DNA of 22,962 nt from a virus. The stretch is taken from the IMG/VR virus record IMGVR_UViG_3300043436_001716, positions 1 to 22,962 of that record; one strand, written 5' to 3'. A model generated the notes under the pieces. It saw only the letters and a program-made list of their open reading frames with translations, was not told the origin of the DNA and did not search any database. The position numbers and the translations under genes were made by a program. Below, in pieces: positions 11,900 through 17,039 of this stretch. The first letter of the stretch is position 1; the number at the start of each line of letters is the position of its first letter.

Positions 11900-12203
11900 T
11901 GCCTTTCTTGCTTATTGCAGTTGGCCTGATGACTGTGGCAATGTTAGCCTCAATGTCTATGTCTTGCTTTGGCTTGCCATAAGCCCTATCCAAGAGTAAC
12001 TCTGCTGCTCTTACATCACCCTTGGTAGCCTTGGCTCTCAGAGCCATCAGGATGGCCTCTGCTGCTGTCTTGCCATCCTTCTCATCACCAAGGACATTAG
12101 CAAGCAACTCCCTTAGCTCAGGGAGTTTTTTAGGTCTGCCAGCAGGATTACCTGACTGCCCTTTTTTCCATTTTCCTTTTTCAAGATTCTCGGGTCTTGG
12201 CAT
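11886..12203 (-). CDS. terS: Terminase small subunit-like protein
   Basis: A 105-aa basic protein whose N-terminus reads KGKWKKGQSGNPAGRPKK (residues 9-26), the KGxSGNPxGRPK signature of DUF5681-type proteins found directly in front of terminase large subunits. The middle part (LRELLANVLGDEKDGKTAAEAILMAL, then GDVRAAELLLDRAYGKPKQ) is a compact helical domain that could recognise the packaging site, and the C-terminus is flexible. It overlaps terL by 14 nt and the DNA methyltransferase gene by 23 nt. Identification rests on motif and position. The packaging-site recognition role is known for the class and inferred here. Confidence 0.87.
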   Translation of the reverse strand: MPRPENLEKGKWKKGQSGNPAGRPKKLPELRELLANVLGDEKDGKTAAEAILMALRAKATKGDVRAAELLLDRAYGKPKQDIDIEANIATVIRPTAISKKGNDSA

Positions 12204-13392
12204 CCTTGTTTTGTCCTTGTAAAGTACCTTCAGTCAGATATGGCTGACCGTTCCTTTTTATTTGCAATGTAGGGTCTAATTTAAGCATCCTGTCAATGAT
12301 AACCTGACAGTATTTTGGCTCAAGTTCCATCCCGTAACATTTGCGGTTAAGTTGATGAGAGGCGACCATTGTTGAGCCTGATCCAAGAAATAAATCTAAT
12401 ATACTTAATGCTTTAGGATTATGGTTTAATCCGTTTTCAATTAAGTTAATAGGTTTCATAGTTGGATGTAATTCAGATTTTTTTGGCCTTTCAAAATCCC
12501 ATACATTAGTTAATGTTCTATTGTCTGTAAATGATGAACCATTATTATTCCATCCAAACCAGCATAATTCATGTTTATTTTGATATTTACCTCTTCCTAA
12601 TGTAAACTGATCTTTATTCCATACTATTACTGTTGAATTATGGAGTGTTTCATCAAGAATGGTAAACATGATTCTTCCATCTTTACCTGGGCCAGCCCAG
12701 CAATAAACAACTCCATCACAAAATAATTTAATATTTGAAGCAAAGCCTTGACAAAAGGTTTTAAATTCATCCCCACTCATATTGTCATTTTCTATTGACC
12801 TCTGTTTGAATTTTGGATGTTTAATATTTCCATAATCAACATTATATGGAGGATCAGTAAAAACCATATCAGCCTTCTGACCATCCATCAATTTAGCAAC
12901 AGCATCTGAATCAGTGCTATCTCCACAAAGCAAACGATGCTCACCTATTTCAAACAAATCACCGATTACAATGTCAGTCTGAACTTCATCAGGCATCTCA
13001 TAATTATCCTCTTCAGCTTCTAATTGCTCTGTCTCAAATTGTGGAACATCTAAGCCCCACTTATCAAGTTCTTCAGCATCCCAATTGTTTGCAAGATCAT
13101 CCCAATCCCATTCGCCAAAACCTACATTGTCCTTGATGATAAACTCTCTTTGCTTGGCCTCATCCCAATCAACAACTTCAACTGGTATCTCTTTCCACTT
13201 AGCTTCCTTCATGGCCTTAAAGCGCATGTTACCACCAAGGATAACCATGTCCTGATTGACCACTATTGGCCTGACATTAGCCATTTCAGGAAAGTCTTTT
13301 AGTGATTGCACAAGCTTCTTAAACTTATCATCCTTGATAAGTCTTGGGTTGCTCGGATTGGGTTTAATGTTGGTTATAGATACTACTTGCAT
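12181..13392 (-). CDS. ParB-like domain fused to N4/N6 DNA methyltransferase
   Basis: A 403-aa bifunctional-looking protein. Residues 1-~115 form a ParB/Srx-like domain, with INPNPSNPR-type start text (IKPNPSNPR), PIVVNQDMVILGGNMRFKA (GGNMR at 53-57) and a WDWDDL linker. From ~140 comes an N4/N6 DNA methyltransferase: GDLFEIGEHRLLCGDS, catalytic TDPPYNV at 179-185, a target-recognition region, HPTMKP at 309-314, and the SAM-binding LDLFLGSGST at 332-341. The order DPPY, target region, FxGxGS marks the beta class. It probably methylates phage DNA to evade restriction. No restriction enzyme gene is nearby, so it acts as a solitary methyltransferase. It overlaps terS by 23 nt, linking modification with packaging in one transcript. 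All catalytic residues are present. Confidence 0.94.
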   Translation of the reverse strand: MQVVSITNIKPNPSNPRLIKDDKFKKLVQSLKDFPEMANVRPIVVNQDMVILGGNMRFKAMKEAKWKEIPVEVVDWDEAKQREFIIKDNVGFGEWDWDDLANNWDAEELDKWGLDVPQFETEQLEAEEDNYEMPDEVQTDIVIGDLFEIGEHRLLCGDSTDSDAVAKLMDGQKADMVFTDPPYNVDYGNIKHPKFKQRSIENDNMSGDEFKTFCQGFASNIKLFCDGVVYCWAGPGKDGRIMFTILDETLHNSTVIVWNKDQFTLGRGKYQNKHELCWFGWNNNGSSFTDNRTLTNVWDFERPKKSELHPTMKPINLIENGLNHNPKALSILDLFLGSGSTMVASHQLNRKCYGMELEPKYCQVIIDRMLKLDPTLQIKRNGQPYLTEGTLQGQNKDAKTRES

Positions 13393-13582: not shown

Positions 13583-13828
13583 TTACTGCAAAGGTAAGTG
13601 TTTTAAGATTGACTCATAGAGGTCAAGTTGATTCTGCCATCTTGATTGGTAACCAGGAGTCAGGTTGGACTCAAGTTTGGCTCTTAGTTGCTTGCACTTG
13701 CGATTGAGTAAGAATCTGATGTCTTGGACTGTCATCTCTTGTTTGGGTTGGAAGTAAAACAAATCATTCTCATAGGTTGCAATGCCTTCCCACATGGAAG
13801 GCACTTGGCTGATGCTTATGTTATTCAT
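13583..13828 (-). CDS. Hypothetical protein downstream of dnaB (81 aa)
   Basis: An 81-aa soluble protein, [15 protein letters not shown] at the start, then [22 protein letters not shown] and a C-terminal helical segment ending SILKHLPLQ. No membrane segment, signal peptide or recognised motif. The basic helical middle could bind DNA or a protein partner. It overlaps the dnaB 3' end by 8 nt, so it is co-translated with the helicase and probably has a replication-related role. I do not recognise the family. Confidence 0.75.
13589..13596 (-). promoter_or_regulatory. Candidate -7 element TACCTTTG before the MPLKKG gene
   Basis: TACCTTTGCA on the minus strand matches TAnnTTTG and ends 19 nt before ATG 13569. 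It overlaps the 3' end of the 81-aa gene. No TTG lies 17-23 nt upstream (nearest at 27), so it is a partial match that could start the methyltransferase-terminase transcript. Confidence 0.3.
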
Positions 13829-15149
13829 AGTTTCTAAGTCGCATTAATGGGCCATCAAAATATAAAGGTTTGATTCCAGTTGAGCCTGATCTCATCTTTA
13901 CTTGGTCAATGATACATAAATTTTCATTCGGGTATTCTCTGTCTCCTATTTTGGTGGTGCTGGTAGCTTCATAATAATATTCAGGTCGAAGCATCATCCA
14001 AATCACATCAGCATCCTGTTCAATGCTTCCTGATTCTCTAAGGTCTGACATCATTGGCATCTTATCCTGCCTCTCATCAACTCTCCTTGCTAATTGGCTT
14101 AAGGCTATTACTGGAATCTGAAGTTCTTTAGCAAGAAGTTTCAGGCCTCTTGAAATCTCTCCGATTATGTTTACTCGGTTAGTCTCTTTAGGATTTACAG
14201 ATTCCATAAGTTGTAGGTAATCAAGAAAGATAATTTTTACCCCAAACTTATTCTTCCACATGGTTGCCTTGGTTCTAAGCTTCCTGATGTTCATGTAACC
14301 ATCCTCACTTATTTTCAAGTTCCAGTTTGCCATCCTATCAACTGCCCTTTTTAGTGAATCCTTGTCTAAGTTGTTGAGTTCATTCTGCTTTATTTTAAAA
14401 GCATAAACTTCTGACTCCTGACTGGCAAGCCTTTGGATTAGTTCTGATTTGGTCATCTCAAGGCTAAACATTCCGCATGGGATTCCCTGCTTTGCTAAGT
14501 TCCGCATTATGCTCACCACAAGTGCAGTTTTCCCTTGCCCGGGTCTTGCTCCAACAATTGTAAGTTCACCAGGGTTAAATCCTCCGCAAAGTTTATCAAG
14601 TGATTCTATTCCGGTTGAAAAGCCTCCGATTGTTCCTTCTGCCCGATTAAACCAACTGTCTGAAGTTTCAATTAAGGCCTTCTGAAAATTCTCATCGGTT
14701 TGGTTGATGGTCGAGGCAAGTAGGTTATCAGATTGAAGTTGAATTTTAGCAAGGTGTTCAAAAATATCAATGGCATCTGAAGTAGATCCTGCAAGCAAGT
14801 CCTGAGCAATGAAATAGGTTTTCATTTTCAGGTATTGTTCAACAAGTATCCTGCAATGAATTTCAATGTGACCAGGATTCTTTAAACTTGTGAAGACAGA
14901 TGCAACATACTTCATGCCTCCAGCTTCATTGATGAGGTTTGACTTTTTTAAGGTTAGTGCAAGAGTCTCCAAATTGATTGGCTCTCCAGCATCATGTTGG
15001 GCTTGTATGGCCTTTGCTATGGTCTTGTTTTTCTCTACTTGAAAAACCTCCACTGATGGCAGGATGTTGAAAGCTTCTAATCTTTCTTCATCATAAAGCA
15101 TCATGGCTGATAGGACTTGCTTTTCTACTTCTTCGTTTTGAAATTCCAT
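13821..15149 (-). CDS. dnaB: Replicative DNA helicase, DnaB family
   Basis: A 442-aa hexameric 5'-3' helicase that unwinds the replication fork. Residues 1-~105 are the helical DnaB N-terminal domain (EEVEKQVLSAMM, LETLALTLKKS). After a linker, the RecA-like motor starts at FSTGIESLDKLCGGFNPGEL (177-196). It has Walker A GARPGQGKT (200-208), the FSLEM motif (~228-232), Walker B IIFLDYLQL (306-314), a sensor SQL (351-353) and the arginine-finger region RESGSIEQDAD (371-381). Length is typical and all motifs are intact. The start overlaps the preceding initiator stop (TAATG, 1 nt), showing coupled expression of loader and helicase. Confidence 0.97.
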   Translation of the reverse strand: MEFQNEEVEKQVLSAMMLYDEERLEAFNILPSVEVFQVEKNKTIAKAIQAQHDAGEPINLETLALTLKKSNLINEAGGMKYVASVFTSLKNPGHIEIHCRILVEQYLKMKTYFIAQDLLAGSTSDAIDIFEHLAKIQLQSDNLLASTINQTDENFQKALIETSDSWFNRAEGTIGGFSTGIESLDKLCGGFNPGELTIVGARPGQGKTALVVSIMRNLAKQGIPCGMFSLEMTKSELIQRLASQESEVYAFKIKQNELNNLDKDSLKRAVDRMANWNLKISEDGYMNIRKLRTKATMWKNKFGVKIIFLDYLQLMESVNPKETNRVNIIGEISRGLKLLAKELQIPVIALSQLARRVDERQDKMPMMSDLRESGSIEQDADVIWMMLRPEYYYEATSTTKIGDREYPNENLCIIDQVKMRSGSTGIKPLYFDGPLMRLRNYE

Positions 15150-15859
15150 TATTGTCTTGATTTAGGTATGCAGTTTGAGAAATCAACTCCCTTCTGATGA
15201 GGAGGCTTATAGGAGGCATTTTCCGCCGGAACATCCGTGGTTGCCTCTTTTTTGTTTTTAGGAAAGTTGTATTCTTTACTTTTCCAATATGCGAGTCTTC
15301 TTGATAAATCAAAAAACTTTTCAGCCTGAAATCTCATTTTACCTTTTTGGTTAGTTTCAGTCCAATAGGCAAAAAATTCATCAATCATACTTTTGCCATA
15401 TTTAGACTCAAAATCAATTAATGACTTTTCTAAATCTGTTTGTGTAATAATTGGTTCTTTAGTTCTTTGGTTAATTGGTTTATCTATTGGGTCAGGTGCT
15501 TGCTCAACTGCTTGCTCAACTGCTTGCTCAGTTGGTGTGTCAAGTGGTGTGTCAGGTGCTTGCTCAAATTTTGACAAGCCAATTATTGAGGAATGATGAT
15601 ATTGATTACACGATTCACGGATTAACTTAATAAATCCATGTTCAATTAAATCACCAAAAAGTTTCTTGTAAGTATTCCGACTACCTATTGAAAGCACCTC
15701 CATAGTGTGCAATCTTGGAAGTCCAAACTCAGCCTTTTGACCAAAATAATTCCACCGATCAACAATGTAAAAATAAAGTTCTGCATGCCCAGCAGAAAGC
15801 TTGCCTGGGTTATTAAATCTCCATTCAAACCATTGCCTGGTTAGTTGATACCCATTCAT
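15149..15859 (-). CDS. Replication initiator / helicase loader with winged helix
   Basis: A 236-aa protein. Residues 1-~95 form a winged-helix domain (QLTRQWFEWRFNNPGKLSAG, ALYFYIVDRWN-like text, then SRNTYKKLFGDLIEHGFIKLI), the pattern of phage replisome-organiser N-domains. Residues 99-122 are a linker of tetrapeptide repeats (EQAP, DTPL, DTPT, EQAV, EQAV, EQAP) encoded by a 12-bp tandem repeat. The C-terminal part (~140-200, SLIDFESKYGKSMIDEFFAYWTETN, FFDLSRRLAYWKSK) resembles a DnaB-loading or DnaD-like helical region, and the last 40 residues are flexible. It is directly upstream of dnaB with a 1-nt overlap and joins the CoiA-like gene by ATGA. The layout parallels lambda O/P-type modules. 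Role inferred with good confidence from domain pattern and context. Confidence 0.82.
   Translation of the reverse strand: MNGYQLTRQWFEWRFNNPGKLSAGHAELYFYIVDRWNYFGQKAEFGLPRLHTMEVLSIGSRNTYKKLFGDLIEHGFIKLIRESCNQYHHSSIIGLSKFEQAPDTPLDTPTEQAVEQAVEQAPDPIDKPINQRTKEPIITQTDLEKSLIDFESKYGKSMIDEFFAYWTETNQKGKMRFQAEKFFDLSRRLAYWKSKEYNFPKNKKEATTDVPAENASYKPPHQKGVDFSNCIPKSRQ
15496..15567 (-). repeat. Six tandem 12-bp units inside the initiator gene (candidate origin)
   Basis: Six contiguous 12-nt units on the plus strand: gtgcttgctcaa, ctgcttgctcaa, ctgcttgctcag, ttggtgtgtcaa, gtggtgtgtcag, gtgcttgctcaa. Four are near-identical and two are a diverged subtype. They encode the tetrapeptide linker of the winged-helix protein. 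Initiator-bound iterons inside the initiator gene are known from lambdoid phages; the origin role is inference. Confidence 0.7.
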
Positions 15860-16587
15860 GCTCTTTTATAAATTAAAGTCCTTAATTTTTCCCCACATCT
15901 ATCAAGTGCATAAATTGTTTCACCTCTAAAATCTGATAGGGAACTATTTATTTCATCAATTCTTGCCTTGAGATTTTTATTTTCTAAGTCCAAATCATGA
16001 TTTATTTTTTGCAATTTTTTCCATTCAAATCTAAACTTCTCCCGAAGCTCAATCATTTCCTTGTATTCAGGAACATGTACAATCTCTTTATATGTAGTTA
16101 ATTTTTTTATATGGTCTTTAATTTGATCTAACCTATCATAAGAGGTGCATATTGAAATTTCAAGACAAAAAACATTTGCTTGTTTAATTTTATTAAGCTT
16201 CCTCTCCTTTATAAATGATGTATGAGCAAACTCAATAAAATAAGGCACATCATTAATGTAACCGATTGCATCTGGAATTATATCTCCAAACTTTTTTTCA
16301 ATTTCAATTCTGTCAAATTCTAATAAATCTGAACCATTAACAACATAAGGTAATTTGATGGACTTAACTCTTTCAAATGCATTTTTATAGGCTTTATGAA
16401 TCAATGATTCACCATTGCACTCAGTAGGTTCTACATGATACAAATGAGGGCTAATCTTATCACCACCTCTTAAGGCAACCTTTTTGCCACATTCACATTT
16501 ATAATGAATGCCTTTTACGGCTGATATATAATCAACCATATTTCCTTCTGAATCATAAGCAAAAGGAACTTTATAACTCTTTTCCAT
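15856..16587 (-). CDS. CoiA-like nuclease-family protein with zinc ribbon
   Basis: A 243-aa protein. The N-terminal ~65 residues show a metal-binding module, KCECGKKVALRGGD (Cys 31, Cys 33), then HLYHVEPTEC (His 48, His 51, Cys 57), typical of CoiA-type competence proteins. Next comes a PD-(D/E)xK-like core: GDIIPDAIGYINDVPYFIEFAHTSF, with Asp 105 and Glu 118 as likely active residues, followed by a KLNKIK segment and NVFCLEI strand. The C-terminal ~70 residues are coiled coil (WKKLQKINHDLDLENKNLKARI). In bacteria CoiA aids DNA recombination during uptake; here a role in phage DNA processing is inferred. ATG 16587 sits directly at the end of a terminator-like U-tract, and the gene ends ATGA-coupled to the initiator. 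Confidence 0.8.
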   Translation of the reverse strand: MEKSYKVPFAYDSEGNMVDYISAVKGIHYKCECGKKVALRGGDKISPHLYHVEPTECNGESLIHKAYKNAFERVKSIKLPYVVNGSDLLEFDRIEIEKKFGDIIPDAIGYINDVPYFIEFAHTSFIKERKLNKIKQANVFCLEISICTSYDRLDQIKDHIKKLTTYKEIVHVPEYKEMIELREKFRFEWKKLQKINHDLDLENKNLKARIDEINSSLSDFRGETIYALDRCGEKLRTLIYKRA

Positions 16588-16678
16588 AAAACAAAAACCC
16601 CATCCGGTTTTCCTTAGTGAGACCAGCCAAGAGTAAGGCTGCTAAGTACTGACCGAATGGGGCTTTAATATTTTTCAT
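16571..16678 (-). CDS. Possible 35-aa leader peptide upstream of CoiA-like gene
   Basis: A short frame from ATG 16678-16676 to TAA 16573-16571, with AAAGAGCA before the start. The product begins MKNIKAPFGQYLAALLLAG, is hydrophobic and has six Leu, five of them in one stretch (residues 12-20). The frame runs through the hairpin and U-tract at 16588-16662 and overlaps the CoiA-like start by 17 nt. It may be a real small membrane peptide, a translated leader that controls the hairpin, or chance. I give it moderate weight because the promoter-like box, start and hairpin lie in the right order. Confidence 0.4.
   Translation of the reverse strand: MKNIKAPFGQYLAALLLAGLTKENRMGFLFYGKEL
16588..16662 (-). 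terminator. Large terminator/attenuator hairpin before CoiA-like gene
   Basis: Minus-strand RNA closes an 11-bp stem, CCCCAUUCGGU with ACCGGAUGGGG (16662-16652 with 16608-16598, one G.U). Inside it are CUUAG/CUAAG (16646-16642 with 16617-16613) and CAGCC/GGCUG (16641-16637 with 16628-16624). The U-tract UUUUUGUUUU (16597-16588) ends exactly at the next ATG. The G.U pair is a mismatch on the other strand, so the signal is for minus-strand RNA. Confidence 0.72.
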
Positions 16679-16722
16679 TGCTCTTTATTTATCCCGGGTC
16701 TCAATCGGGGTCTTTCGACATG

Positions 16723-16757
16723 CAAATCTAAGCTTCTTTTTTCAAATGGTCATCAAA
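16723..16757 (-). promoter_or_regulatory. Candidate promoter TTTG-N23-TAGATTTG
   Basis: Minus strand TTTG (16757-16754) and TAGATTTG (16730-16723) are 23 nt apart, at the upper limit of the Bacteroidota promoter pattern. The box overlaps the stop region of the 103-aa gene, and the predicted start would give a ~130-nt leader in front of the CoiA-like gene. Confidence 0.45.
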
Positions 16758-17039
16758 ATTATTGATGTAATCAATGAACCTATTTACCTCTTCCTCCTCC
16801 ATGTCAAAGATTTGCCACACAAGATCAATAATAGAACTGTTGATTGTATCCTCTGCCTCTGCCATGTCTTTGCCTAATTGCTGGTGCAGGAACTTCTCAA
16901 ACTCAACAGAGTGATGGAGTAGCCTATTGAAGTGCAGCTTCACATCATGCCTAAGAGCCTTGTCTGAATGCTTGATGACAAAGCCTGTCTCTATTATGCC
17001 CCGAACAAAGCAGGTAAACTTGCTAAAGTCGTTTTTCAT
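16728..17039 (-). CDS. Hypothetical helical protein (103 aa)
   Basis: A 103-aa soluble protein, MKNDFSKFTCFVRG at the start, mostly helical by composition, with basic and His-rich middle (KALRHDVKLHFNRLLHHSVEFEKF) and an acidic C-terminal half (DMEEEEVNRFIDYINNFDDHLKKEA). No membrane segment or catalytic motif. ATG 17039 overlaps the upstream stop as ATGA, so it is coupled to the 85-aa membrane-anchored protein, which suggests the two work together. Function unknown. Confidence 0.78.
   Translation of the reverse strand: MKNDFSKFTCFVRGIIETGFVIKHSDKALRHDVKLHFNRLLHHSVEFEKFLHQQLGKDMAEAEDTINSSIIDLVWQIFDMEEEEVNRFIDYINNFDDHLKKEA

Follow-up and report, generated by a model that had tools for sequence, protein, structure and literature searches.

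A conserved pseudoknotted leader RNA with a predicted terminator heads variable genes and a replication operon in uncultured phages

We analyzed a 22,962-nt stretch of viral DNA (IMG/VR record IMGVR_UViG_3300043436_001716, hereafter the window). The minus-strand segment directly upstream of its CoiA-like nuclease gene is, on comparative evidence, a member of a conserved structured RNA family of ~105–135 nt. Members of the family extend from a TAnnTTTG promoter box to the U-tract of a predicted terminator, usually 0–6 nt short of the next AUG, and the knotted fold is retained, despite altered sequence, in dozens of related uncultured phages. The shared architecture is made up of a 3-bp hairpin at the 5' end (P0), a second hairpin (P1), a linker, and a terminator hairpin (P2) that carries an AGUA/GAA internal loop together with P3 and, in most cases, P4; it is common to at least five sequence classes, named A to E. 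The leader apparently represents a new structured RNA family and, as far as its sequence can tell, a new form of leader-RNA control.

All parts of the element lie on the minus strand of the window. The -7 promoter box TAGATTTG (TAnnTTTG, 16723–16730), whose position relative to P0 is fixed across relatives, is preceded at a spacing of 23 by a TTTG (16754–16757) that makes a poor -33 element; as this spacing exceeds the usual -33/-7 distance, only the -7 box is convincing. P0 (GUC-GAAA-GAC, 16710–16719) is situated near the predicted RNA 5' end and is followed by P1 (CCCG-AUUGAGACC-CGGG, 16693–16709). The loop of P1, L1, contains UGAGACC (16697–16703), the first strand of a pseudoknot whose second strand, GGUCUCA (16618–16624), occupies the 3' bulge between P4 and P3. 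P2 (AAAGCCCCAUUCGGU / ACCGGAUGGGGUUUU, 16594–16666), supported by folding and covariation, encloses the internal loop J2/3 (5' side CAGUA, 16647–16651; 3' side GAAA, 16609–16612), P3 (CUUAG/CUAAG, 16613–16646, with 16642–16646 pairing with 16613–16617) and P4 (AGCC/GGCU, 16625–16640, with 16637–16640 pairing with 16625–16628), and leads into the U-tract (16593–16597). A leader ORF of 35 codons (MKNIKAPFGQYLAALLLAGLTKENRMGFLFYGKEL and a stop) spans 16571–16678. The initial annotation had placed on this strand a TTTG-N23-TAGATTTG box, the 35-codon frame, a G+C-rich hairpin and two pairs of complementary segments, and all were found at those positions. It had described the hairpin as 11 bp long with a U-tract ending at the next ATG; a hairpin and U-tract are indeed present before the ATG, but the hairpin comprises a core of 12 pairs, extended to as many as 15 if A-U pairs are counted, and two further helices inside it, and the U-tract stops 5 nt ahead of the ATG at 16587. 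The fold, which it proposed to check, is more stable than that of shuffled sequences, with an energy of -46.3 kcal/mol (z = -3.06) that was equally low in 1 of 200 shuffles.

The many relatives, all of them uncultured viral contigs, were obtained through the upstream 103-aa gene, the DnaB helicase, the terminase and short patterns; the CoiA-like protein yielded a single one (L002). The leader recurs among them while the downstream gene changes. Among the loci first fetched, a covariance model of the window type (R1, which excludes five sequences with a misaligned P0) detects 53 strong copies with E values of 5e-14 or better and weakly (E 1e-4 to 1e-3) picks up another kind occupying the same site. 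No more than one element was present on each of the ~35-kb contigs searched. Three large contigs (44–69 kb) carry tandem elements, type B then type C, ~260–490 nt apart with one or two small genes between them (L279, 1505–1997; L281, 190–908; L280, 1717–2209). Searches of Rfam 15 gave no match for the window at gathering scores, nor for the element or classes A–D at permissive thresholds, so that a known family with a curated covariance model was rejected, as was a tRNA or tmRNA identity. Only chance fragments were matched in cultured phages, exact patterns gave zero matches in GTDB genomes, and literature searches, which covered open-licence papers, found no description of the family.

Comparison of the relatives shows that the fold itself is conserved. 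In a MAFFT alignment of type A, built from sequence without structure, the fold including the pseudoknot is 98.1% paired, and 16 pairs (109 cells) are changed on both sides, as against 10.3 pairs and 35.6 cells in shuffles, none of 500 of which scored as high; in slid controls, pairing falls to 29–50%. Within this alignment, the middle pair of P0 covaries between G-C, C-G and U-A with 100% pairing, P1 is 99% paired with double changes in two of its four pairs, and double changes are seen in 4/5 pairs of P3 and 2/4 pairs of P4. RNAalifold, unaided, returns the identical nested fold. Type B, aligned in the same way, has a different sequence and lacks P4, and its fold is 99.7% paired with 10 double-change pairs (44 cells). 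Classes C (L279, L280, L281), D (L282) and E (L290, L301 and others, read by eye) display P0, P1, the loop-bulge pairing, AGUA or GUA opposite GAA, P3, P4 and the terminator. The AGUA/GAA loop is kept in the type A and B alignments, where it and some loop bases are the few conserved unpaired positions, and is readable in classes C–E. Bulged-G (sarcin-ricin) loops have an established consensus, which the AGUA/GAA loop matches, suggesting a similar three-dimensional structure.

A long-range contact is formed by the 7-bp pairing between L1 and the P4/P3 bulge. UGAGACC and GGUCUCA are 100% paired in 26 type A sequences, with double changes in four of the seven pairs, and the helix covaries across about a dozen genotypes. 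Over all elements, a 7-base complement links L1 to its own bulge in 77 of 83 candidates but in only 444 of 6222 swapped pairs; the candidates were collected automatically and include a few false positives such as GATTTA and GTAGTA. The covariation check suggested in the initial annotation thus came out in favor of this helix, and the pairing it had noticed is real. Its proposed effect of breaking the hairpin finds no support: GGUCUC already lies in a bulge when the hairpin is folded, so that UGAGACC could bind there without competing with the hairpin. The helix is a pseudoknot that can coexist with the terminator rather than an antiterminator. The other suggested competitor, a 9-bp antiterminator formed by AAAGACCCC and GGGGUUUUU (16715–16707 with 16601–16593), was rejected, since 80.8% of its cells are paired versus 80.6% in shuffles and it has zero double changes. 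Any further alternative helix was discarded after an exhaustive all-against-all scan of type A, in which compensatory change appears only in P1, P2, P3, P4 and the pseudoknot and no conserved mutually exclusive fold was found. What is conserved is therefore not a classical two-state attenuator, and no built-in switch is visible.

The 5' border of the element is set by the promoter. A TAnnTTTG-like box with variable middle bases ends 3–5 nt before P0 in 61 of 62 type A/C variants, within 50 distinct upstream contexts, and TAnnTTTG is the -7 consensus of sigma-ABfr (PMC7366714). The evidence for the box comes from this fixed place and not from its occurrence in the window, where the 26 matches on both strands are not significant against about 10–12 expected per strand. 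Its position suggests that the RNA begins approximately at P0, and the promoter type points to a host among the Bacteroidota. A second TAnnTTTG-like box (TAATTTTG, 16754–16761) is found 31 nt before the -7 box, within the final part of the preceding gene. In four relatives (L096, L098, L100, L101), an additional gene separates the conserved 103-aa gene from the element, which indicates that promoter and RNA move as one module.

The leader ORF (16678–16571) overlaps the CoiA-like gene by 17 nt, out of frame. An ORF of this kind is present in types A, C and E and absent from types B and D. In all 57 A/C variants with a linker ATG, its frame is open through the hairpin and U-tract, while the other frames through the hairpin are closed in 70 of 117 cases, both counts being inflated by shared ancestry. 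In L038, which lacks the ATG, the frame is nonetheless open (read by eye). Between leader ATG and U-tract lie 81 nt in almost every A/C variant and 84 nt in L037, where a linker indel is balanced by a loop change. The frame always overlaps the next ATG, by exactly 4 nt (ATGA) in 30 variants. Across the region from U-tract to gene ATG (16597–16587 in the window, and its counterparts in the relatives), U-tract length varies, yet the distance between the two ATGs is never a multiple of three in 62 variants, and in-frame fusion of the leader ORF with the next gene seems to be avoided. The peptide itself is unconserved: relatives have YVS, RNR or RLL in place of the Leu-rich run singled out in the initial annotation, so that a Leu-codon attenuator was rejected even though the small frame is kept open. 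The suggested attenuation layout holds for the structured leader, the terminator directly before the gene and the open leader frame, but not for the antiterminator or the Leu codons. Ribosomal frameshifting on the U-rich end is unlikely because the hairpin is located upstream, not downstream, of the U-rich run. Upstream A content is 38% at the leader AUG versus 7% at the gene AUG, and pairing around them is 0.55 versus 0.69; A at -3 is rare at both (6/54 and 1/54). In Flavobacterium, initiation is lowered by structure around the start and raised by A at -3 (PMC6847099).

At the 3' border, 82 of 86 variants have an ATG within 0–6 nt of the end of the U-tract, ahead of 17 unrelated gene families; in four type B variants (L166, L169, L172, L175) the gene start is 11–29 nt away. 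Most often, the element is followed by DUF6291 and winged-helix replication-type genes; the others include an HNH nuclease, an N6/N4 DNA methylase and a GNAT acetyltransferase (Pfam), the CoiA-like gene, small unknowns and, by eye only, a GIY-YIG-like protein. In the window, the CoiA-like gene (15856–16587, minus strand, 243 aa; Pfam CoiA_N, E 0.0021, below the curated cut-off) precedes a gene of 236 aa (15149–15859, minus strand) that has no Pfam match and is replication-type by its position before the DnaB-type replicative helicase (13821–15149, minus strand; Pfam DnaB_C, E 8.9e-80). The leader had initially been tied to the CoiA-like gene; with one viral relative found by that protein (L002) and 17 families after the element, a link to this gene as such was rejected, and CoiA-like is one cargo among several. 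The fixed distance to the next AUG before such varied genes indicates that the replication operon begins with the element, whose 3' edge exactly borders a cargo slot. Examples at this one boundary are found in L014, L009, L038, L131 and the window (15856–16587). The element marks a slot at which phages exchange nucleases, a methylase and other small genes.

We consider it slightly more probable than an even chance that the element acts in cis at the head of the phage replication operon as a terminator and occlusion leader, which translation of the leader ORF would relieve in types A, C and E. By comparison, a predicted intrinsic terminator lies between the promoter box and the structural gene, as in attenuators. 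Transcription would start at the TAnnTTTG box and the 5' end would immediately fold into P0 and P1; as the terminator hairpin emerges, L1 would dock through the 7-bp kissing pseudoknot onto the P4/P3 bulge, beside the AGUA/GAA loop, and the resulting compact fold would be closed by the stem of the predicted intrinsic terminator. By default, most transcripts would end at the leader U-tract, and any transcript that did read through would have its next AUG close up against the hairpin, in surroundings poor in A. A ribosome that initiates at the linker AUG in types A, C and E could traverse the hairpin, dissolving pseudoknot and terminator, and stop across the next start codon, thus allowing read-through and handover to the first gene. 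Types B and D, which lack the ORF, would depend for opening on some other factor, of phage or host origin. We infer termination, read-through, occlusion, coupling and their triggers from this arrangement.

The main rival, which we deem unlikely, is a trans-acting sRNA gene, in which a stable 5' hairpin, the knotted core and the terminator, expressed from the gene's own promoter, would give an abundant ~125-nt phage RNA that acts elsewhere (on host RNA, an RNA-binding protein or defence), with the next gene close merely from genome compactness. Promoter box and terminator bound the RNA exactly, by comparison; no alternative fold is conserved; and types B and D do without the ORF, which also speaks against relief by translation. 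Likewise, the 11–29-nt gap in the four type B variants suits an independent RNA, and in L169 and L175 the gene, 25–29 nt away, has its own A-rich start region. Such an RNA would, however, have no need of the AUG that, in 82 of 86 variants and ahead of unrelated genes, comes 0–6 nt past the U-tract, or of a leader frame that always overlaps the next start. The cis-acting leader is favored because of this fixed next-AUG link, the overlapping open frame and the less paired, A-richer leader AUG.

A riboswitch-like leader, in which the knotted core and AGUA/GAA module bind a metabolite or protein that sets terminator formation, appears quite improbable. The compact pseudoknotted fold, the conserved non-canonical module and the place directly before genes would suit it, but few unpaired bases outside the AGUA/GAA loop are conserved, the helix scan shows no competing fold, the downstream genes are functionally unrelated and Rfam holds no match; the missing second fold leaves a riboswitch as unsupported as a classical attenuator. 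We judge it very improbable that the variable L1/bulge pair confers a specificity with which the leader RNA of one phage pairs in trans with that of another, much as antisense RNAs control the replication of plasmids. Two observations are consistent with it, namely the dozen or so complementary loop genotypes at one site before replication genes and the different classes in tandem in large phages; drift with compensation explains the genotypes too, and on the plus strand no TAnnTTTG box, the one type searched for, was found between 15388 and 18340, nor thus inside the element. A broader proposal, doubtful in our view, is that uncultured Bacteroidota phages widely carry an RNA device in which the terminator forms the core of a kissing-loop structure, the translated leader ORF gates the cargo slot and replication operon, and the loop genotypes might give specificity in co-infection.

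The putative cis-acting leader shares features with several known systems. The glnA and GOLLD RNA families combine E-loop/bulged-G modules with loop-loop contacts, and the phage leader resembles them in its AGUA/GAA-type module and long-range loop pairing, but its helix order is different and it has no Rfam match. Leader-peptide attenuators of the trp/his/leu type have the same order of promoter, short ORF, terminator and structural gene; unlike them, the phage leader has neither an antiterminator nor conserved regulatory codons. In the IncI-alpha/I-complex plasmid ColIb-P9, according to the account in PMC10286972 (citing Asano and Mizobuchi 1998), translation of the leader ORF repY is needed for the initiator gene repZ and an RNA pseudoknot is the switch. 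As in that account, a leader ORF (in types A, C and E only) and a pseudoknot precede the phage replication operon; there, however, the pseudoknot activates initiator translation under antisense RNA control, whereas the phage pseudoknot would dock onto an intrinsic terminator, the plus-strand search for TAnnTTTG boxes revealed no antisense promoter, and classes B and D, unlike the plasmid system so described, have no leader ORF. tetQ of the Bacteroides element CTnDOT, from the same phylum, has a mobile-element attenuator, but one of translation, and a pseudoknotted terminator is not described in that paper (PMC5418344). In Bacteroides thetaiotaomicron, sRNAs that are intra-operonic or derived from 5' UTRs run from a promoter to an intrinsic terminator within an operon (PMC7366714), and the phage leader resembles them in both respects, by description and not by sequence.

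With this element, phages that putatively infect Bacteroidota gain a well-supported structured RNA family that Rfam 15 lacks. To our knowledge, little is known of gene regulation in these phages, and we know of no other case that joins a 5' hairpin kissing a terminator hairpin, a sarcin-ricin-like loop within that terminator, and a leader ORF that crosses both to reach the next start codon. Elsewhere in the window, 12181–13392 encodes a 403-aa protein with a DPPYNVDYG motif and an N-terminal ParB-like stretch, which resembles a ParB-methylase fusion.
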